Below, one piece after another: positions 9,035 through 58,173 of a stretch of 64,000 nucleotides of DNA. A program made the translations under genes and the position numbers. The DNA comes from Neolewinella lacunae (GTDB lineage: Bacteria > Bacteroidota > Bacteroidia > Chitinophagales > Saprospiraceae). The notes below the pieces were generated by a model. The model had not been told where the DNA came from. It saw nothing but the letters and a program-made list of their open reading frames with translations, and searched no databases. Location: assembly GCF_014349155.1 (NCBI RefSeq), contig NZ_JACSIT010000154.1, positions 1 through 64,000 on the forward strand, written 5' to 3'. Within the stretch, counting starts at the first letter, position 1; each line of letters starts with the position of its first letter.

Positions 9035-10009
9035 ATGTCCTTTCTCGCACGCCGCCGCGCTACTTTTGATCCGCCCCGCTTCCAGGGCTGGGGGCGGCAA
9101 CGGCGCTACTTCGAAGGCTGGTATTTCAAGATTGTAGTTCCCGAGCACAACCTGGCCTACGCCTTCATCCCCGGCATCAGTTACGATGCGGAGGGAGAGG
9201 GCCACGCCTTCCTGCAGGTTCTCGACGGAGTGGCCGCCACCTCGGCCTACCACCGCTACCCTACCGCCGATTTCCGGCCCGCCGCCGACCATTTTGCGCT
9301 CGAACTCGGTCCACACGCCTTCGCTACCGATCGCCTGCGCATTGCTTTGCCGGATTTGCAGTTGGATCTCGCATTCACCGACGTCATTGGCTGGCCGAAG
9401 CGGCCCCTGGCCCCGGGCGTAATGGGTTGGTACGGGTTCGTCCCGCGCATGCAGTGCTACCACGGGCTGGTCAGTCTTCACCACGGCCTGCGGGGCACGA
9501 TCAGCGTCGGCGGGCAAAAGTATTCCGCAGCGGGCGGCACGGGCTACACGGAAAAAGACTGGGGCAGCGGCTTTCCGGCCGCCTGGATCTGGTGCCAAAG
9601 CAACCACCTTTCCGGCACTACGGGCCCCGCCAGCCTGATGGCCAGCGTCGCCAAAATCCCCTGGTTCGGCGCATCGTTCACCGGTTTTCTGGCCACTTTT
9701 CTCCTCGAAGGACAGCTCTACCTGTTCACCACCTGGGCGCGGTCGCAGGTGCAAACGACGTTTTTGAAGAGCAAGGAAGTGCAACTCGTGTTCTCCGCCC
9801 CCGGCCAACGCCTCATCATCACCGGCCATCCCGCTCCGGGCGGCGACCTGCTCAGCCCCATCAGCGGAGCCATGAACGGAAAGATCAACGAAAGCCTCCG
9901 CGCCGAACTGGACGTAAGCCTCTACCTCAACGATCAACTCCACTATTCCGGAACCGCCAGTTGGGCCGGGCTGGAAGTGTCGGAGAATGCGGAAGGGGGG
10001 TTAGTTTAG
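9035..10009 (+). CDS. Tocopherol cyclase family-like protein
   Basis: A 324-residue protein with the hallmarks of the tocopherol cyclase-like family: RYFEGWYFKIV near the N-terminus, YAFIPGIS, GVMGWYGFVPRMQCYHG, and TEKDWGSGFPAAWIWCQSNHL (the EKDWG and WxWxQ motifs). In bacteria these proteins are thought to be lipocalin-like and are not shown to make tocopherol, so the substrate is unknown. Codons for about residues 234-248 (WARSQVQTTFLKSKE) coincide with a complete copy of the dispersed 42-bp repeat. The stop codon sits at the beginning of an 8-bp tandem repeat. Confidence 0.8.
   Translation: MSFLARRRATFDPPRFQGWGRQRRYFEGWYFKIVVPEHNLAYAFIPGISYDAEGEGHAFLQVLDGVAATSAYHRYPTADFRPAADHFALELGPHAFATDRLRIALPDLQLDLAFTDVIGWPKRPLAPGVMGWYGFVPRMQCYHGLVSLHHGLRGTISVGGQKYSAAGGTGYTEKDWGSGFPAAWIWCQSNHLSGTTGPASLMASVAKIPWFGASFTGFLATFLLEGQLYLFTTWARSQVQTTFLKSKEVQLVFSAPGQRLIITGHPAPGGDLLSPISGAMNGKINESLRAELDVSLYLNDQLHYSGTASWAGLEVSENAEGGLV
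9735..9776 (-). repeat. Dispersed 42-bp repeat, copy inside a gene
   Basis: Core GGGCGCGGTCGCAGGTGC at 9735-9752, 16-nt spacer, arm GAGCAAGG at 9769-9776. Both parts match intergenic copies at the same spacing, so chance is unlikely even though the region is coding. Confidence 0.75.
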
Positions 10010-10063
10010 TAGTTTAGTAGTTTAGTAGTTTAGTAGTTCAGTAGTTCAGTAGTTTAGTAGTTT
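10003..10063. repeat. 8-bp tandem repeat AGTAGTTT, seven full units
   Basis: Seven near-identical AGTAGTTT units (two with a terminal C) at 10008-10063 after a partial unit. It overlaps the stop codon of the tocopherol-cyclase-like gene (TAG at 10007-10009) and lies between two convergent genes. A short 7-bp repeat (GAACTAT) follows at about 10077-10096. Confidence 0.9.
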
Positions 10064-10093
10064 GCTGGTAACTAGTGAACTATGAACTATGAA

Positions 10094-12052: not shown

Positions 12053-12093
12053 CCCCGCTCCTTCCACCGTTCCTGGCACCTGCGCCCGCGCCC
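12053..12093 (+). repeat. Dispersed 42-bp repeat copy
   Basis: Arm CCCCGCTC at 12053-12060, 15-nt spacer, core GCACCTGCGCCCGCGCCC at 12076-12093. GGGCGCGGGCG at 12011-12021 is complementary to the end of the core and could pair with it. The copy lies between the fadD-like stop and the AAA-M41 start, both minus-strand genes. Confidence 0.85.
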
Positions 12094-14573: not shown

Positions 14574-14589
14574 GTTGGGGGGGCGGGAG

Positions 14590-14636
14590 CAGGGCGGCGA
14601 GGAGGCAAAGGCTGGTTTTGCTAATTTTCATGTGCG
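14590..14636 (-). pseudogene. Truncated copy of the neighbouring lipoprotein signal sequence
   Basis: These 47 bp match 15263-15309 with two mismatches and read on the minus strand as a start codon (14631) plus the signal-peptide beginning MKISKTSLCLLAAL, then lose homology before the terminator. It looks like the remaining 5' end of a second lipoprotein gene, or a partial duplication of the gene at 14651-15304. Confidence 0.7.
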
Positions 14637-14650
14637 CTGTGGTGAGCGGG

Positions 14651-15304
14651 TCATTCTACTACCCGGAAGGTGAATTTGCCTCCAAGAAGGTAGCCCTCAT
14701 AAGTCTGCACAAAATCACCGGCTACTTGATCCCAGGCAAGAAAATCATTGAAATTATCCATCGTTGAAAACCGGTTGATCCTATTGATAAAGACGTTTTT
14801 CCTGAGGTTATTTTTACAAGAATAGTAGGTGGGGTGGCGATAAGTACCCTGCTCCTCACCGGATATCGAGGTAGTACTGTAATCTCCGGGGGCCACTAAT
14901 ACAATACCAAAGCGAACTGCATAACCAAACTCCGTCTCTTCAAAAAGATAATCATAGCCCCCAAGCTGATTGATCTCCACCGAACCCCTTTCTACTATAA
15001 CTTGTGAAGTTGTGTAAGTCCTCAGTTGAGATTCGCTTATTAGCGAAATATAGAGCGAAGAAAAAAACTTGTGATCCACCAATTCAATATCGTTTTGGTT
15101 GCCTACGACCTTGACAAATTTAGGAAAATCCGCCACCACCCACAGAGTATCACCCACTTGGTAGATGTTTTCCCTTCGTCCTATATCTACGGGGATTTCC
15201 ATTTCAAGCACGTCTCCGAATTCGTCTTCTTCGCAGGCGCAGCTGGCGAGGGTGGTCAGGAACAGGGCGGCGAGGAGGCAGAGGCTGGTTTTGCTGATTT
15301 TCAT
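14651..15304 (-). CDS. Predicted lipoprotein, unknown function
   Basis: A 217-residue protein with a lipoprotein signal (MKISKTSLCLLAALFLTTL, lipobox LASC). The mature part is acidic after the cysteine, then beta-rich, with paired cysteines near SCACEEDEF and a single one at YYSCKNN. No family recognised. The gene is AT-richer than its neighbours, suggesting a different origin. The start at 15304 is set by the signal peptide. A 47-bp near-copy of its start lies just beyond its 3' end. Confidence 0.65.
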   Translation of the reverse strand: MKISKTSLCLLAALFLTTLASCACEEDEFGDVLEMEIPVDIGRRENIYQVGDTLWVVADFPKFVKVVGNQNDIELVDHKFFSSLYISLISESQLRTYTTSQVIVERGSVEINQLGGYDYLFEETEFGYAVRFGIVLVAPGDYSTTSISGEEQGTYRHPTYYSCKNNLRKNVFINRINRFSTMDNFNDFLAWDQVAGDFVQTYEGYLLGGKFTFRVVE

Positions 15305-15309
15305 GTGCG

Positions 15310-15657: not shown

Positions 15658-16530
15658 TTAATGACTCCAACCATCCTGCTCCCGCGCCAGATTACCCGCT
15701 TTGATGCGTTCTGCTTCCAGCAGCCGACTGCGGCCATCGGCGTGGTAATCGGTAATGCGGCGGTTGTGGATATTGCTTTCTTTAACGATGGCGCTGTTGA
15801 AAAAACGGCTTTCAAAAAGGTCTTCCCAACTGCGGTTGCCGGCGTCATTTCCCTCCAGATAGGCCTGCTCGGTGGCCAGCATTTCCCGGGCTGCGGGGTA
15901 GTAGACCCAGAAGGCGGGGATTTCGTAGAGGTAGTTGCCCGTCTCGTCGTACACATCTTTCAGGGGCGCAATGCCCAGAATTTGGGTCCGCATGCTGCCC
16001 GCGGCCTTGTCAAAATACGTTATTTCCTGGAGGCGGTAGCGCCGGAAATCGGCCGGGTTGAAGGCGCGGGGCACCGCCCGGTAGCTCACGCTTTGGTCGC
16101 GCGGGTCGATGATGGCCACGGTATCGGCCCCGCCGTTGATGGCGGTCCGCTCCAGAGCGCTCAGCGGGGTCGTGAACTTGTCGTCGATGGTGCTGTACAG
16201 CTGGATTTTGCCCGCGTCGGCGGCTTCCACCAGAAGGCTCACCAGCGGCCGGGGCGGGTAGGCGAAGGGAAGGTTGATCTTCTCGCGGCTGTCAATCGTC
16301 CGCCAAATCCGTTTTTGCCACATCACATCGGCGGCGCGCAGGGGCGTACCGGCCAGGGCCGGGCTCTGGGTCTTTTGCCGGTCCGCCACAATATCGTTCA
16401 CCGGCGTAGGAAAGCTTTTTTCAACGGCGGGGCTGCCCGGTGCGGGCAGGGTGGCTTGCTGGGCGCGGCCGCAGGTGCCAGGAAGGGTGAAAAGCAGGGT
16501 AAGGCCAAGGGCCAGCAAACGGTAAACCAT
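15658..16530 (-). CDS. gldN: Gliding motility / type IX secretion protein GldN
   Basis: A 290-residue periplasmic protein of the GldN/PorN family, a partner of GldK in the type IX secretion ring. Diagnostic parts are VMWQKRIWRTIDSREKINLPFAYPPRPL, LYSTIDDKFTTPL, PRDQSVSYRAVPRAFNPADFRRYRLQEITYFDK and ILGIAPLKDVYDETGNYL. The signal peptide is MVYRLLALGLTLLFTLPGT, and its end plus the expected cleavage site (CGRAQ) is encoded by a copy of the dispersed repeat. gldK, gldL and gldM are not adjacent, so this is an orphan copy or the cluster is split. The start at 16530 gives the complete signal peptide. Confidence 0.88.
   Translation of the reverse strand: MVYRLLALGLTLLFTLPGTCGRAQQATLPAPGSPAVEKSFPTPVNDIVADRQKTQSPALAGTPLRAADVMWQKRIWRTIDSREKINLPFAYPPRPLVSLLVEAADAGKIQLYSTIDDKFTTPLSALERTAINGGADTVAIIDPRDQSVSYRAVPRAFNPADFRRYRLQEITYFDKAAGSMRTQILGIAPLKDVYDETGNYLYEIPAFWVYYPAAREMLATEQAYLEGNDAGNRSWEDLFESRFFNSAIVKESNIHNRRITDYHADGRSRLLEAERIKAGNLAREQDGWSH
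16461..16499 (-). repeat. Dispersed repeat copy inside the gldN signal-peptide codons
   Basis: Core GGGCGCGGCCGCAGGTGC at 16461-16478, 13-nt spacer, arm AAGCAGGG at 16492-16499. In frame it encodes the end of the hydrophobic region and the cleavage region. Confidence 0.8.
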
Positions 16531-20542: not shown

Positions 20543-20584
20543 GGGCGCGGACGCAGGTGCAAAGGCAGCAATGAAGGAGCAAGG
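20543..20584 (-). repeat. Dispersed 42-bp repeat copy
   Basis: Core GGGCGCGGACGCAGGTGC at 20543-20560, 16-nt spacer, arm GAGCAAGG at 20577-20584. It starts 27 bp after the stop of the transsulfuration gene, between convergent genes. Confidence 0.9.
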
Positions 20585-22091: not shown

Positions 22092-22177
22092 ACCCTCGCT
22101 CCTCCCCCTTTGGGGGTTGGGGGGCCAACACTCTCCCCCCTTCGGGGGGGCGGGGGGGAGCACCTGCGAACGCGCCC
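22092..22177 (+). repeat. Dispersed repeat, long-spacer variant
   Basis: Core GCACCTGCGAACGCGCCC (one mismatch) at 22160-22177. A CTCGCTCC arm-like sequence near 22092 is separated from it by a G/C-run spacer including CCCCCCTTCGGGGGG. The same kind of long spacer occurs in the copy inside the GNAT gene. It lies between corC and mscS. Confidence 0.65.
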
Positions 22178-26782: not shown

Positions 26783-26822
26783 GGGCGCGGCCGCAGGTGC
26801 CCGCAACGTTGGAGGAGCAAGG
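26783..26822 (-). repeat. Dispersed 42-bp repeat copy
   Basis: Core GGGCGCGGCCGCAGGTGC at 26783-26800, 14-nt spacer, arm GAGCAAGG at 26815-26822. It lies upstream of ppiD. Confidence 0.9.
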
Positions 26823-27665: not shown

Positions 27666-27706
27666 CCCTGCTCCTTTGTCGGGGGGGAGCACCTGCGTCC
27701 GCGCCC
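27666..27706 (+). repeat. Dispersed 42-bp repeat copy
   Basis: Arm CCCTGCTC at 27666-27673, 15-nt spacer ending in a G-run, core GCACCTGCGTCCGCGCCC at 27689-27706. A second CCCTGCTCC lies just upstream (27650), touching the MITE target duplication. Confidence 0.9.
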
Positions 27707-29429: not shown

Positions 29430-31784
29430 ATGTTTGTCTTTCAAGAATGCCGTTGGGTCCATCCGCCGGGCCCGGAAAACAGCAGGCAATACCGAACTAC
29501 CGTGGAGCCACAAACAGTTACCCGCTGGTCTTTGGGGGGGATTCCGTACGGCGGGGCAACTCAGCCGGCGGGGCTCCTGCGCCTCCGGGGCCCGGGGGCG
29601 GCTACGCACATCAGCCTGGCCCTGCACGCTGCCCTGGAGCAGGGCCTGGCGGTATGCCTGCGTTGTTTATCCGCGCAGCAGGCCGCCCTGCTTACTGCCG
29701 GGCTGGCCAAGCCCCCCCGCTTCCCCGCCGCAGCTTTGCTGCGGGCCGCAGCAACGGAGGACAGCGGCGTGTTTGGGCCCTACGGATTTGCCGAAACGGT
29801 GGGTTTGTGGTTAAAAAATGGCCTTTCCCCGGCGGCGGCGCTGCTCAATCCCTTCATTTCTACGGATAGTTTCGAGTTTACGCCCGCCGAGTTCCTGGAG
29901 CTTAAGGAGCGCTTGTTGCAGACGCTGCGGAAGTACGAAAAGCTCCCCCGCGTTTCCAAAGGGCTGGAAGACCTCAACACCGGTTTTTTCCGCCACCGCA
30001 GCCTCACCGAGAGCCAGCAGTTCATCACCCAGCACGTGGAGCAATATTTGGCGGAGGGCAGTGCCCTGTACCGCGACTTCCTCCTGGCCATCCACGGCCA
30101 CGCGCGGGCGGCGCTGTTTGCGGGCCAGCGGAACTTGCGCAGCCGGCGGGATACCCTCACTGCCTTTACCGACCGCCTCGCAGAAATTCCTGCCGCCAAC
30201 GCACGCCAGCAACGCAAAAGCCTGCCCCAGCTTCGCGAAGACTGGGCGGCGTACCACCTTTTGCACTACGGCACCCCACCCGCCACCGAGAGCACCGCTG
30301 GCCCGGAAGCCCTGGCCAAGGCTTTTGCCGCCGAAGCCAGTGCCCTCACCCAGGCCCGCGAACAGCTGGGGCGGGAGTTGCAGGCCAATTCCCTTTCCCT
30401 CAACGCCGTTACGGTTGACCCCAGCCTGGGCGACCCGGAAGTTTTCCGGCGCCTGGCCGACCGCCTCACCGAGCTGCTCAGCAAAATGGACGAGGCGGGG
30501 CTCTACCAACTCCCCATCGGGGGAAACAACGCCGCAACCGCCCCCCGGCAACTGCAGCTGCTGGAAAACACCCTGGAAAAATTGCGCAACACCCAGCGCC
30601 ATCTCGGGGAATTGCCTGACTTTTACGCGCGCCGCCACTTCTGGTACGCCCAGCCCGCCCGCCTGCGCCGGCTGATGGCTCCGCTGCTGGACCTGCCGGC
30701 CGACGACTGGGAAATTGCCTTCACCAGCTGGTACTTCGAACGCTGCCTGCAGCGGGTGGAAGTCCCCGGAGCCCATCGCCTGGACCCCGCCGCACTGGCC
30801 CGGCTGGCCGACGAACTCCTCACCACCGCGCGCAACGGGCGGGCGGGTGCGGACGCCTCCGCGCTGCGCATCGTCTTGCCCGGCCAGCCAGTGCCGCCGC
30901 CCACCGGCGCGGCCGATGTGTTGATTGACCTGACGGACGAGGCAGCTGACCCCGCCTGGAAAAAAAATACGGTCTACCAACTCGCACCCTTGCAGGATGC
31001 AACGGCGCGGTACCTGACCTTGGCGGGCTGCCTCGCGCCGGCGCTGGCCCTGACGCAGCCCTTTGCGACCCTGCGGCCGCCGGAGTGGACGGCCGTGTAC
31101 GTAGCGGAAGCGCCCCCGCGCACGGGTGCCGGAGCGGGTTTCCAGCTGGGCGAAGGGCCCTGGAAAACCCTCCCCCAGTGGCCGGGGGCCAGCGCCGGGC
31201 ACCTCCGGCTTTTTTTCCCGGATCAACTGAGTGCCGACGATGGGGCGACGGTCCTGCGGCACTGGGAAGACTGGCTGCTGTGCGCGCCCCGCCTCAGCAT
31301 TTTCCACCGCTGGCCCTCCGATCGCATCACACAGGCTCTGCTCAGCGACGGCTTCGGGGCCGATTTCCTCGTCGCAGCCCTCATCCGCAGTGCCGAGGCT
31401 GCCGCCGCCGTTCCTTTCGACCGCGAAACGCTGCTGGCGATGGGCCGCGAAGTCCGGACCCGCTGCGGCTTGCAGGATCCCGGCCCCCACCCGCTGGCGG
31501 AGCACCTGGTACCGCTCCTGCAAGACCGGCTGCCCCAGCATTTTTTCGAGGTGCACGTGCCCTGGCGCGACACTTTTTTGCCCCTTCTGGTGATGGCCCC
31601 CGACGGCAAAAAAACCGTTTTACTGCCCGACGGCCGTCTCCCCGGCCAGGCCCCGGCGGAGGTGGAAGCCCTGCGGCAGCGGGAGCTAAGCACCGTGGGC
31701 TTGCGGTGTCTGGCCATCGATGCGGAAGGGATCTGGGGCGCGTCCGCAGGTGCAACGGAAGCCTTAAGGCAAAGTTTGAGATAG
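29430..31784 (+). CDS. Large unrecognised protein, possibly a decayed SF1 helicase-nuclease
   Basis: The frame is open from 29142; 29430 is the first ATG near protein-like composition, giving 784 residues, but the start is uncertain. No intact catalytic motif is seen. Three features echo the large SF1 helicases with a C-terminal MTES_1575-type nuclease: LLRLRGPGAATHISLALHAALEQGLAVCLRC in the place of a P-loop, VLIDLTDEAADP in the place of a Walker B DEAS box, and a C-terminal VEALRQRELSTVGLRCLAI like the nuclease tail. This comparison is tentative. The last codons (WGASAGATEA) lie in a dispersed-repeat core. GC at third codon positions supports the plus strand. Confidence 0.55.
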   Translation: MFVFQECRWVHPPGPENSRQYRTTVEPQTVTRWSLGGIPYGGATQPAGLLRLRGPGAATHISLALHAALEQGLAVCLRCLSAQQAALLTAGLAKPPRFPAAALLRAAATEDSGVFGPYGFAETVGLWLKNGLSPAAALLNPFISTDSFEFTPAEFLELKERLLQTLRKYEKLPRVSKGLEDLNTGFFRHRSLTESQQFITQHVEQYLAEGSALYRDFLLAIHGHARAALFAGQRNLRSRRDTLTAFTDRLAEIPAANARQQRKSLPQLREDWAAYHLLHYGTPPATESTAGPEALAKAFAAEASALTQAREQLGRELQANSLSLNAVTVDPSLGDPEVFRRLADRLTELLSKMDEAGLYQLPIGGNNAATAPRQLQLLENTLEKLRNTQRHLGELPDFYARRHFWYAQPARLRRLMAPLLDLPADDWEIAFTSWYFERCLQRVEVPGAHRLDPAALARLADELLTTARNGRAGADASALRIVLPGQPVPPPTGAADVLIDLTDEAADPAWKKNTVYQLAPLQDATARYLTLAGCLAPALALTQPFATLRPPEWTAVYVAEAPPRTGAGAGFQLGEGPWKTLPQWPGASAGHLRLFFPDQLSADDGATVLRHWEDWLLCAPRLSIFHRWPSDRITQALLSDGFGADFLVAALIRSAEAAAAVPFDRETLLAMGREVRTRCGLQDPGPHPLAEHLVPLLQDRLPQHFFEVHVPWRDTFLPLLVMAPDGKKTVLLPDGRLPGQAPAEVEALRQRELSTVGLRCLAIDAEGIWGASAGATEALRQSLR
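31736..31753 (-). repeat. Dispersed repeat core at the 3' end of the large ORF
   Basis: GGGCGCGTCCGCAGGTGC (one mismatch to consensus), with a weak arm-like GGCAAAGT 15 nt further. It forms an inverted pair with the copy at 31797-31836. Confidence 0.7.
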
Positions 31785-31796
31785 GGGGAGCACTTC

Positions 31797-31836
31797 CCCC
31801 GCTCCCCGTCCATTTTTGGCACCTGCGTCCGCGCCC
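31797..31836 (+). repeat. Dispersed 42-bp repeat copy
   Basis: Arm CCCCGCTC at 31797-31804, 14-nt spacer, core GCACCTGCGTCCGCGCCC at 31819-31836. It is just upstream of the gcvP promoter. Confidence 0.9.
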
Positions 31837-37315: not shown

Positions 37316-37862
37316 GACCGACCGCATCATCCTCCACAACCTGCCTTTTAAGCCGATGCTGACGGAAGCCGCCATCCAGCAGCGCGTCGGGGAACTGGGT
37401 CAAACGCTACGGGAACGCCTGGCGGGGGGGCAACCCAGCTTCGTGGTTATGCTCAAGGGGGCTTTCGTTTTTGCCGCCGACCTCATCCGGGCCTCCCGGC
37501 TCAACGGCGAGGTTTGCTTTGTACGCACCAGCAGCTACCGCGGTACGGCTTCGGAGGGGAAGGTCCGCCTCCACCTGGCCCCCGACCCCGCCGAGATTAC
37601 CGGCCGCGACCTGGTATTGATCGAAGACATTGTGGACAGCGGCTACACCATGCAGGCTTTTCTGCCGGAGCTGGAGCGCCTCCAGCCCCGGTCGATCACC
37701 CTGGTTACCTTGCTCCACAAGCCCGAAGCCCAGCAAGTTCCGCTGAAAATCGACCTGGTTGGCTTCGTCATTCCTCCTCATTTTGTGGTAGGCTATGGCC
37801 TGGATTACGACGGGCTGGGCCGCCACTTACCCGCCATCTACCAACTTGACGAGCAGTACTAA
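37302..37862 (+). CDS. hpt: Hypoxanthine phosphoribosyltransferase
   Basis: A 186-residue purine-salvage enzyme forming IMP or GMP from base and PRPP. The PRPP loop is VLIEDIVDSGYT; MLKGAFVFAADL and the flexible-loop region SSYRGT are in place. It overlaps the end of the M28 peptidase gene by 14 nt and its stop overlaps the GNAT start (TAATG), forming a tight three-gene operon. Confidence 0.92.
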   Translation: MDSGKTDRIILHNLPFKPMLTEAAIQQRVGELGQTLRERLAGGQPSFVVMLKGAFVFAADLIRASRLNGEVCFVRTSSYRGTASEGKVRLHLAPDPAEITGRDLVLIEDIVDSGYTMQAFLPELERLQPRSITLVTLLHKPEAQQVPLKIDLVGFVIPPHFVVGYGLDYDGLGRHLPAIYQLDEQY

Positions 37863-38401
37863 TGCATCCCATGCGCATTCGCCCCATCACTTCTGCGGAT
37901 AACCGCGCCGTAGCGCAGGTCATCCGCACCGTCATGCCCGAGTTCAACTGCGTTGGGGAGGGCTTTTCCATCAACGACCCGGAGGTGGACGATATGGCTG
38001 CCCACTACAATTCTCCGGGGGCCACTTTTTTTGTTTTGGAAACGGGCGCGGCCGCAGGTGCTCCCCCCCGCCCCCCCGAATGGGGGGAGTTAGGACGAGG
38101 AGCAGAGATTGTCGGGTGCGCCGGCTTTGCTCCTCTGACGGGCAGCGACGGAAAAACCTGCGAACTCCGCAAGATGTACCTTCTACCTTCCGCCCGGGGC
38201 CAGGGCGGTGGCAAAATGCTGATGACGGCCTGCCTGGAAGGGGCCCGGCAAGCGGGGTATACCCAGATCTACCTGGAAACCGTCACGGCCATGGAAACGG
38301 CCCAGCAAGTCTACCTCCGCAGCGGCTTCCGCTACATTGAAGGTCCGCTTGGCGCAACGGGGCATTCGGGATGCGACCGTTTCATGATTCGGGATTTGTA
38401 G
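37862..38401 (+). CDS. GNAT family N-acetyltransferase with an in-frame repeat insertion
   Basis: A 179-residue acetyltransferase. The acetyl-CoA site is LRKMYLLPSARGQGGGKMLM (RGQGGG loop), and the C-terminal part AQQVYLRSGFRYIEGPLGATGHSGC is typical. Between FFVLE and EIVGCAGF, adjacent strands in normal GNATs, about 21 extra residues rich in A, G and P (GAAAGAPPRPP...) are encoded by a long-spacer copy of the dispersed repeat. The frame is kept, so the enzyme may still fold with an extended loop. The ATG at 37871 is an alternative start. Confidence 0.85.
   Translation: MHPMRIRPITSADNRAVAQVIRTVMPEFNCVGEGFSINDPEVDDMAAHYNSPGATFFVLETGAAAGAPPRPPEWGELGRGAEIVGCAGFAPLTGSDGKTCELRKMYLLPSARGQGGGKMLMTACLEGARQAGYTQIYLETVTAMETAQQVYLRSGFRYIEGPLGATGHSGCDRFMIRDL
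38044..38107 (-). repeat. Dispersed repeat, long-spacer variant, inside the GNAT gene
   Basis: Core GGGCGCGGCCGCAGGTGC at 38044-38061, a 38-nt G/C-run spacer containing CCCCCGAATGGGGG, and arm GAGCAGAG at 38100-38107. The total of about 63 nt is a multiple of three and matches the extra peptide. Confidence 0.85.
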
Positions 38402-38438: not shown

Positions 38439-38480
38439 CTTTGCTCTTTAGTCCCATTCCCAGCACCTGCGGCCGCGCCC
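38439..38480 (+). repeat. Dispersed 42-bp repeat copy
   Basis: Arm CTTTGCTC at 38439-38446, 16-nt spacer, core GCACCTGCGGCCGCGCCC at 38463-38480. It lies between the convergent GNAT and leuB genes. Confidence 0.92.
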
Positions 38481-42443: not shown

Positions 42444-42485
42444 GGGCGCGGCCGCAGGTGCCGGGGAAAGGATTGTGGAGCGGGG
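42444..42485 (-). repeat. Dispersed 42-bp repeat copy
   Basis: Core GGGCGCGGCCGCAGGTGC at 42444-42461, 16-nt spacer, arm GAGCGGGG at 42478-42485. It lies between the ATPase stop and the leuC promoter. Confidence 0.9.
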
Positions 42486-50940: not shown

Positions 50941-50982
50941 CTTTGCTCTTTTGTCCTGCCCATTGCACCTGCGACCGCGCAA
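50941..50982 (+). repeat. Dispersed 42-bp repeat copy
   Basis: Arm CTTTGCTC at 50941-50948, 16-nt spacer, core GCACCTGCGACCGCGC then AA instead of CC at 50965-50982. It ends 4 bp from the stop of the minus-strand gene at 50987. Confidence 0.85.
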
Positions 50983-51577: not shown

Positions 51578-51955
51578 CTAAACCCGCCAATCGACCGAAT
51601 GTAAGCGCTCAACGAGCAGGTTGGTGATGCGGCGGTTGGCGTCTTCATCGTGGGCAAGGAAAAATTCAAATTCGGCGGCGGTAAACTGCCCGATCACCAG
51701 GCCAAAGAGCATGCCCCGCAGGTGTTTATCGCGGGTGACGACTTCTTTGATCCGCGCAAACCGGTCTTTGACGGGCACCTGCAGGAGGTTGATTTTGCGC
51801 TTGGCCAGTGCAAAACGGAAGAGGCCCAGCAGCAACTCGTGTTGCATTTTCAGGATGGGCCGCAGGGTCTCGTTCTGAAAGTTTTCGGTGGGCGCGGTCG
51901 CAGGTGCAAGGGAAAGAACGGGGCGCAGGGCAAGGCGGGCAGCGTCGTTGGTCAT
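51578..51955 (-). CDS. Small hypothetical protein with repeat-derived N-terminus
   Basis: A 125-residue cytoplasmic protein; the C-terminal 90 residues (LRPILKMQHELLLGLFRFALAKRKINLL ...) are regular and helical. Residues about 9-22 (ALRPVLSLAPATAP) are encoded by a copy of the dispersed repeat, which suggests that the present N-terminus was formed by repeat insertion. No function recognised. Confidence 0.55.
   Translation of the reverse strand: MTNDAARLALRPVLSLAPATAPTENFQNETLRPILKMQHELLLGLFRFALAKRKINLLQVPVKDRFARIKEVVTRDKHLRGMLFGLVIGQFTAAEFEFFLAHDEDANRRITNLLVERLHSVDWRV
51890..51930 (-). repeat. Dispersed repeat copy inside the small hypothetical gene
   Basis: Core GGGCGCGGTCGCAGGTGC at 51890-51907, 15-nt spacer, arm GCGCAGGG at 51923-51930. 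Confidence 0.85.
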
Positions 51956-58131: not shown

Positions 58132-58173
58132 CCCTGCTCTTTCGTGCCGACCAAGGCACCTGCGGCCGCGCCC
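58132..58173 (+). repeat. Dispersed 42-bp repeat copy
   Basis: Arm CCCTGCTC at 58132-58139, 16-nt spacer, core GCACCTGCGGCCGCGCCC at 58156-58173. It lies 67 bp upstream of the ATG at 58241. Confidence 0.92.

Follow-up and report, generated by a model that had tools for sequence, protein, structure and literature searches.

To our knowledge, only two proteobacterial families are known to have uptake sequences. The USS of the Pasteurellaceae consist of a core with accessory segments downstream. For the neisserial DUS, the part of PMC2397512 drawn on here gives a conservation of 97% against a background of ~85% and a mostly intergenic location in permissive regions; many recent copies look gained by recombination, not by point mutation. 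Eight DUS dialects, which follow the phylogeny, are distinguished within the Neisseriaceae in the cited portion of PMC3630211, and gene-internal uptake sequences with an orientation bias are known from PMC2346458 (in excerpt). Rickettsia palindromic elements (RPE), of ~150 bp, insert in frame into unrelated genes, as stated in the section of PMC10969869 used here. Within the Bacteroidota, Riemerella columbina prefers its own DNA, and the k-mer table of that study, in the part considered (PMC7965970), holds A-rich or T-rich words only; transformation of R. anatipestifer needs ComEC, DprA, ComF and RecA together with proteins of unknown function (excerpt of PMC8459023). In the open-licence literature searched we found no uptake sequence established in Bacteroidota, and among the matches listed for Lewinella or Neolewinella repeats and for uptake sequences of Bacteroidota or Saprospiraceae, the motif reported below is undescribed as judged by title and start of abstract. 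We know of no case of natural competence in Neolewinella.

Here we report a dispersed motif of the genus Neolewinella, one copy of which lies within a GNAT acetyltransferase gene of N. lacunae. With a probability of roughly one half, the GNAT segment is one copy of a DNA signal that occurs throughout the genus, is spelled in dialects that differ between species and functions in the manner of a DNA uptake sequence. It seems an even call whether a DNA uptake-sequence system has evolved independently in Neolewinella (Bacteroidota), one whose core is new, which comprises at least four dialect groups and whose sites include protein loops and linkers. Like the DUS of the Neisseriaceae, the motif comes in hundreds to thousands of copies with a near-invariant core and phylogeny-consistent dialects; above-flank conservation, a location mostly between genes, permissive in-gene sites and some block-like gains are likewise shared, as far as the cited parts of the DUS studies go. 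It differs from the DUS in its longer 18-bp core with a free position, in a right box and in C/G hairpins nested in the spacer, and its density of approximately one copy per 5 kb is below that of the DUS in most of the Neisseriaceae genomes listed in the cited portion of PMC3630211. With the USS it shares the core and accessory downstream segments and the presence within coding sequence. From both DUS and USS it differs in sequence and phylum. As with the RPE, an in-frame extra peptide is found inside unrelated protein genes, but compared with the RPE (~150 bp and palindromic by name) the element is only ~45–60 nt long, its core is no long palindrome, it tends to be kept in place and it has dialects. 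REP/RAYT sequences resemble the element in being short, abundant, mostly intergenic and sometimes arranged in inverted pairs; however, 31 of 114 sampled N. lacunae copies lie inside predicted genes and are not extragenic, and the presence of Y1_Tnp does not seem to track the copy number.

The window analysed is a stretch of 64,000 nt of N. lacunae DNA (contig NZ_JACSIT010000154.1, positions 1 to 64,000 of the forward strand). The GNAT gene (37862..38401, + strand) is an open reading frame of 179 aa that was assigned by Pfam (Acetyltransf_1, E 9.1e-15), by its orthologues and by a fold model with a mean pLDDT of 89.8, which matches GNAT structures in the PDB. As the preliminary description had reported, the gene carries a repeat in frame; both core and right box are present. 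The whole element (38044..38107, +) is recognized from its sequence and is composed of the 18-bp core GGGCGCGGCCGCAGGTGC (38044..38061, +), supported by genome-wide matches and column conservation, a C/G hairpin directly after the core (38062..38089, +), which has a fixed offset and is absent from the GNAT copies of the relatives, and the right box AGGAGCAGAG (38098..38107, +; consensus AAGGAGCAANG), identified in a right-anchored alignment of copies. An Rfam scan of the window returned no family at gathering score. In the predicted structure the insert falls in a loop at the surface: blocks 61–70 and 71–80, which correspond to the element segment, have pLDDT values of 66 and 57, and confident strands (55–61 and 82–91) flank them. 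Since the segment lies in a low-confidence loop between confident strands, it reads as a tolerated extra loop in this model.

In the N. lacunae genome (5.82 Mb) the 14-mer core yields 1204 matches with one mismatch allowed, compared with 31 for the pattern read backwards, and 819 exact copies, compared with two for the control; the orientation of the ~1,200 copies is balanced (611/593). The repeat consists of an 18-bp core (GGGCGCGGNCGCAGGTGC), a spacer and, in the copy-rich clade, the right box. For a closer description 114 copies were taken from 464 kb of the genome, allowing one mismatch in the 14-mer and including chance hits; such chance matches (e.g. 59201 on the − strand, which lacks the GGGC start) remain part of the counts of gene locations, alignments, pairs and arms. 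In these copies the 18-bp core is near-invariant with one free position, the spacer is otherwise variable and a G is frequent four bases after the core. The search itself demanded 13 of the 14 core positions; the GGGC start, which lies outside the search, is conserved too. A right box with a score of at least 9 was found in 51 of 114 copies versus 5 of 114 after shuffling (right-anchored alignment), and in 50 of these 51 it is located 11–14, 34–35 or 53–55 nt after the core, with the longer distances occurring where hairpins intervene. The C/G hairpins are largely confined to the elements (27 of 29 in the 464 kb), at offsets of 15, 49 or 28. Since these offsets are fixed in many copies, some elements seem to have been duplicated as whole units; a pure uptake signal needs no such copying.

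Gene locations rest on a home-made gene caller, according to which the three sampled contig stretches are 75–86% coding: of the 114 copies, 74 fall between genes, 31 are contained entirely within predicted genes and nine extend over a gene edge. The left box is nearer to the gene than the right box in 45 of 63 intergenic single copies, a bias that uptake does not predict. Ten of the 11 close pairs are head-on inverted and 69–138 nt apart. A hidden second arm that would make each copy a MITE was considered and rejected, as downstream scores of the 94 unpaired copies equal those of the shuffled control; upstream of single copies, three strong opposite matches turned out to be neighbouring copies. 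Copies are spaced more evenly than random (CV 0.70, KS p 0.0175, n 104), and the strands are balanced along the three stretches (+25/−26, +18/−17 and +15/−17), showing no polarity.

Within the window, a second copy lies between the GNAT gene and leuB (38463..38480, −). Further intergenic copies were found at 12076..12093 (−), 20543..20560 (+), 22160..22177 (−, with two hairpins in its spacer), 26783..26800 (+), 27689..27706 (−), 42444..42461 (+), 50965..50982 (−, a TTGC start variant) and 58156..58173 (−). Three copies lie inside predicted genes: 9735..9752 (+) in a gene at 9035–10009 (+), 16461..16478 (+) in a gene of the opposite strand (15658–16530, −) and 51890..51907 (+), again in a gene of the opposite strand (51578–51955, −). 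An inverted pair with a spacing of 92 nt is formed by a left arm at 31736..31753 (+), which overlaps the 3′ end of a predicted gene (29532–31784, +), and a right arm at 31819..31836 (−). Two further observations were made in the same stretch. Positions 9994–10071 contain a tandem array of an 8-nt unit (TAGTTTAG type) in seven registered copies, and two 60-nt stretches (14577–14636 and 15250–15309), 673 nt apart and 90% identical, are perhaps duplicated gene starts.

Across 21 genomes of the genus the exact 14-mer occurs between 0 and 819 times and the relaxed pattern GCGNNCGCRGGTGC 4–1164 times (controls 1–17); the relaxed pattern has 0–11 copies in the 39 genomes taken from the rest of the family and order, and among the genomes searched its abundance is restricted to the genus. 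Only 4–59 copies were counted in G001, G010, G004, G017 and G006, and the number in G001 does not exceed its control. EM motif discovery over the whole sequence drifted to codon-periodic patterns in many genomes, and unseeded counts of intergenic words were used instead. In 11 of the 16 genus genomes sampled, the 9-mer CGC[A/G]GGTGC is among the twelve top words. The top intergenic word of G001 is GAGCGCAGG, a part of GGCGGAGCGCAGG, which has nine copies in 100 kb; the small samples of G004, G006, G017 and G020 gave nothing clear in these counts. Read by eye, the spelling of the copy-rich species is GGGCGCG(G/A)NCGCAGGTGC, G013 and G019 use GGGCGCTGCCGCRGGTGC and GGGCGCGGTCGCGGGTGC, G008, G011 and G017 (and G004, with few copies) use GGGCGGGGYCGCRGGTGC, and G012 and G016 have a GGCGGCGGAGCGCGGGTGC-like form to which that of G001 is close. 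A variant with an extra A (GGATGC) has 0–131 copies. By eye these spellings group by the clades of a two-protein TyrRS+HisD tree, and the dialects appear to follow the phylogeny broadly. The copy-rich species sampled have a clear right box; none was seen in the copy-poor species, which offer few copies to judge. Y1_Tnp hits are present in 20 of the 21 genomes regardless of copy number, with none in G018 (765 copies, a fragmented draft) and four in G001 (four copies); Y1_Tnp/RAYT was set aside as the driver, as no relation to copy number was seen. As a separate observation, G013 contains an array of ~104-bp units with inverted GTCCGACGACTT motifs (L086 12594–13492), and related GTCGGAC words recur in G006 and G017.

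Alignment of GNAT orthologues, which were found in 19 of 20 genus relatives (G009, in which none was found, is a 55% complete genome), revealed both filled and empty sites. Judged by eye on alignment and DNA, the element occupies the same place in eight relatives, and hence in nine species including N. lacunae: G014, G007, G003, G002, G018, G005, G013 (a diverged copy) and G019 (frame shifted). The site is empty in 11 (G001, G004, G006, G008, G010, G011, G012, G015, G016, G017 and G020), and no repeat-free orthologue with the same segment occurs among the aligned genus sequences. The loop measures 23 residues in N. lacunae, 18 in five filled relatives, 22 in G013 and 29 in N. aurantiaca, where it holds a further nested insert. 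In eight empty members measured by script it has 5–8 residues; the empty G011, G012 and G015 fall outside the script's measurement and are visibly short in the alignment. The preliminary description had expected FFVLE and EIVGCAGF to be adjacent in the GNAT fold and let the insert add 21 residues. The empty orthologues have the loop of 5–8 residues between the two segments, so that the net gain is ~15–18 residues. That the repeat moves or has moved, as was also proposed, agrees with the existence of empty orthologues as far as a past gain is concerned, but a recent move is unsupported: the copy occurs in nine species, and by eye the seven sequences of the rich clade have identical GGC, GCA and GGT codons in it, so that it provides no evidence for such a move.

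Because the same place is filled across species, the GNAT copy is old and maintained and not a recent jump. In the TyrRS+HisD tree, ten of the eleven empty-site species form one clade (support 0.998) and the remaining one, G010, sits on a long branch next to G003; depending on the root of the tree, the history may comprise a single gain or a gain followed by a loss. What happened recently at this locus is the nesting of the hairpin in the spacer, and the C/G hairpin is the only feature here that is special to N. lacunae. By eye, the spacer measures 36 nt in N. lacunae versus 15 nt in the five relatives with 18-residue loops, a difference of +21 nt, which is accompanied by −6 nt before the core. 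In N. antarctica (G019; L049 5187–5202) the GNAT gene goes out of frame at a 16-nt palindrome, CCCGATAGCTATCGGG, within the element; this palindrome has six counts over both strands (three places) in 100 kb of that genome. The earlier proposal that the insertion can be tolerated as a new loop is supported by the loop position between strands, but does not extend to N. antarctica, whose gene is broken at this site.

Retention of the motif in place was determined between sister-species pairs with 75–82% DNA identity, with reciprocal occurrences counted twice. Same-genus DNA is ~75–82% identical at best, which makes target-site duplications unreadable; very short high-identity alignments to G010 and G034 were ignored. 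Of 75 aligned occurrences of the core with a GGCG start, 55 are retained, versus 2046 of 9934 for shuffled words, and none of 291 shuffled words reached this value. The bare 9-mer is retained in 86 of 147 cases, and shuffled words behind the same GGCGNNNN in 7 of 54. When each site is counted once, both sister species have the motif at 31 of 50 (16/33, 6/6, 5/7 and 4/4 per pair, figures that have no matched control), and 17 of 33 sites in the pair G008/G011 have it in one species only. Among 17 printed differences between sister species, 13 are substitutions without a gap in the core, and in four the core lies in a gap. Large-scale synteny of N. lacunae with G013, G014 and G002 was too local to survey empty sites in bulk, with homologues in the sampled stretches for 5 of the 31 gene-internal copies.

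Synonymous sites gave a second view of conservation. In HisD, where the core sits at a position without length change in the alignment, comparing fourfold sites of the core among copy-rich species gives 140 identical pairs out of 161 versus 2267 of 5239 in the rest of the gene, and none of 242 windows is as high; in the 12 other species the effect is weak (159/264 versus 5320/11588; 22 of 270 windows as high). For TyrRS of the copy-rich species we found 67 of 85 versus 1223 of 2697, with 1 of 220 windows as high. Synonymous sites in the HisD and TyrRS cores show 1.7–2 times the conservation seen elsewhere in these genes. The same test on GNAT is weak (48/84 versus 569/1413; 8 of 125 windows as high), and because the gap is misplaced in most rows of that alignment we relied on HisD and TyrRS instead. 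In the linker of an ABC transporter, a recognizable spelling was observed by eye at the orthologous position in many species. The spellings differ, and several are in the species' own dialect, among them the G001 form in G001; a GGATGC form occurs in several copy-rich species. There is no motif in this linker in G010 and G015, and damaged forms exist in G013 and G016. In G016 (L315) the motif is broken by a CCCGATCGCTATCGG-like palindrome, the second case of a small palindrome inside the element after the N. antarctica GNAT gene. A CoaBC linker holding the motif, in some cases degenerate, is present in the copy-rich species and in G013, G015 and G019; it is nearly absent in the remaining species.

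Retention in place, dialects at orthologous sites and synonymous conservation together argue for a signal that is read by the cell and against a mobile, decaying sequence. Among cell-read signals, DNA uptake sequences appear to match best, and we infer that a preference in uptake or recombination is the driving force. In Neolewinella, a component of natural transformation, located at the cell surface or belonging to recombination, would prefer DNA bearing the core, spelled GGGCGCGGNCGCAGGTGC in N. lacunae and differently elsewhere. Fragments with the core would be taken up and recombined more often, and copies would accumulate and be kept by molecular drive where they are tolerated, which would be mostly between genes and, for about a quarter of the sampled cases, inside them. 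The species with the GNAT copy may have inherited it from an ancestor in which it entered, as one block, the loop between strands 55–61 and 82–91; the core would then have been largely retained, and the C/G hairpin would have joined the spacer later, in frame, in N. lacunae. A member of the ComEC family is present in all 21 genus genomes, which says little since 10 of 14 control genomes have one as well. If the uptake reading is true, the motif would be a candidate for a self-DNA tag of the kind hinted at by the Riemerella competition experiments, and its dialects would make sequence-specific uptake in Bacteroidota directly testable. It would suggest convergent evolution of a DNA tag resembling a mating barrier, and would mean that a signal at the level of DNA can shape the loops and linkers of proteins throughout a genus.

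Among the alternatives, binding or modification by a chromosomal protein (a nucleoid or segregation factor, a regulator or a DNA methylase), with the core kept for binding, is a serious rival, albeit a doubtful one. It would fit a core that is near-invariant apart from one free position, the accessory right box and the G often found four bases on, together with retention in place, regular spacing and the closeness of copies to gene ends. Chi and KOPS are strand-polar signals, whereas the three sampled stretches show no strand polarity; moreover, selection on each of ~1,200 sites, also deep in unrelated enzymes, would be hard to sustain, and a change of dialect within one genus would be less expected. 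It is very improbable that ordinary variation in loop length together with GC-rich low complexity merely resembles a repeat. Outgroup loops do vary, e.g. with 13 residues in one Labilithrix MAG, but the segment matches the full core and the right box, the 1204 genomic matches stand against 31 in the control, the same place is filled in nine species, and the 4–1164 copies of GCGNNCGCRGGTGC in the genus contrast with 0–11 in 39 other genomes.

An unlikely alternative is that of a mobile, non-autonomous repeat (MITE, REP or RPE-like) which inserts in trans, at times in frame within genes, with the GNAT copy as one such insertion. This would explain the blocks gained by GNAT and by the CoaBC linker, where an extra in-frame segment relative to empty orthologues is seen as in RPE or MITEs, as well as the inverted pairs and the many copies with near-identical, hairpin-bearing spacers; Rickettsia elements, too, enter unrelated genes in frame (cited section of PMC10969869), and for the four printed differences with the core in a gap insertion or deletion is possible. 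Terminal inverted repeats or a palindrome over the element, as in RPE or MITEs, were not found in the 94 unpaired copies, whose downstream second-arm signal does not rise above the shuffled control. Furthermore, the core is near-invariant and the spacers are variable, old copies are retained more often than the controls, the HisD copy lies where no length change occurs, 13 of the 17 printed differences are substitutions, and Y1_Tnp hits do not seem to track the copy number.

Finally, two observations were made beside the motif itself. A further dispersed sequence, TTTTgaACCACtAAga, is hit 74 times over 344 kb in the C136 and C22 samples of N. lacunae. In IMG/VR, 83 stretches hold the 18-mer, many of which may be chance matches; among the matches listed, contig 3300009467_000002 (44.6 kb; L239, L253, L268, L297 and L302) bears seven exact cores, a density approximately that of a host chromosome, and may represent either a Neolewinella provirus or a mis-called host contig.
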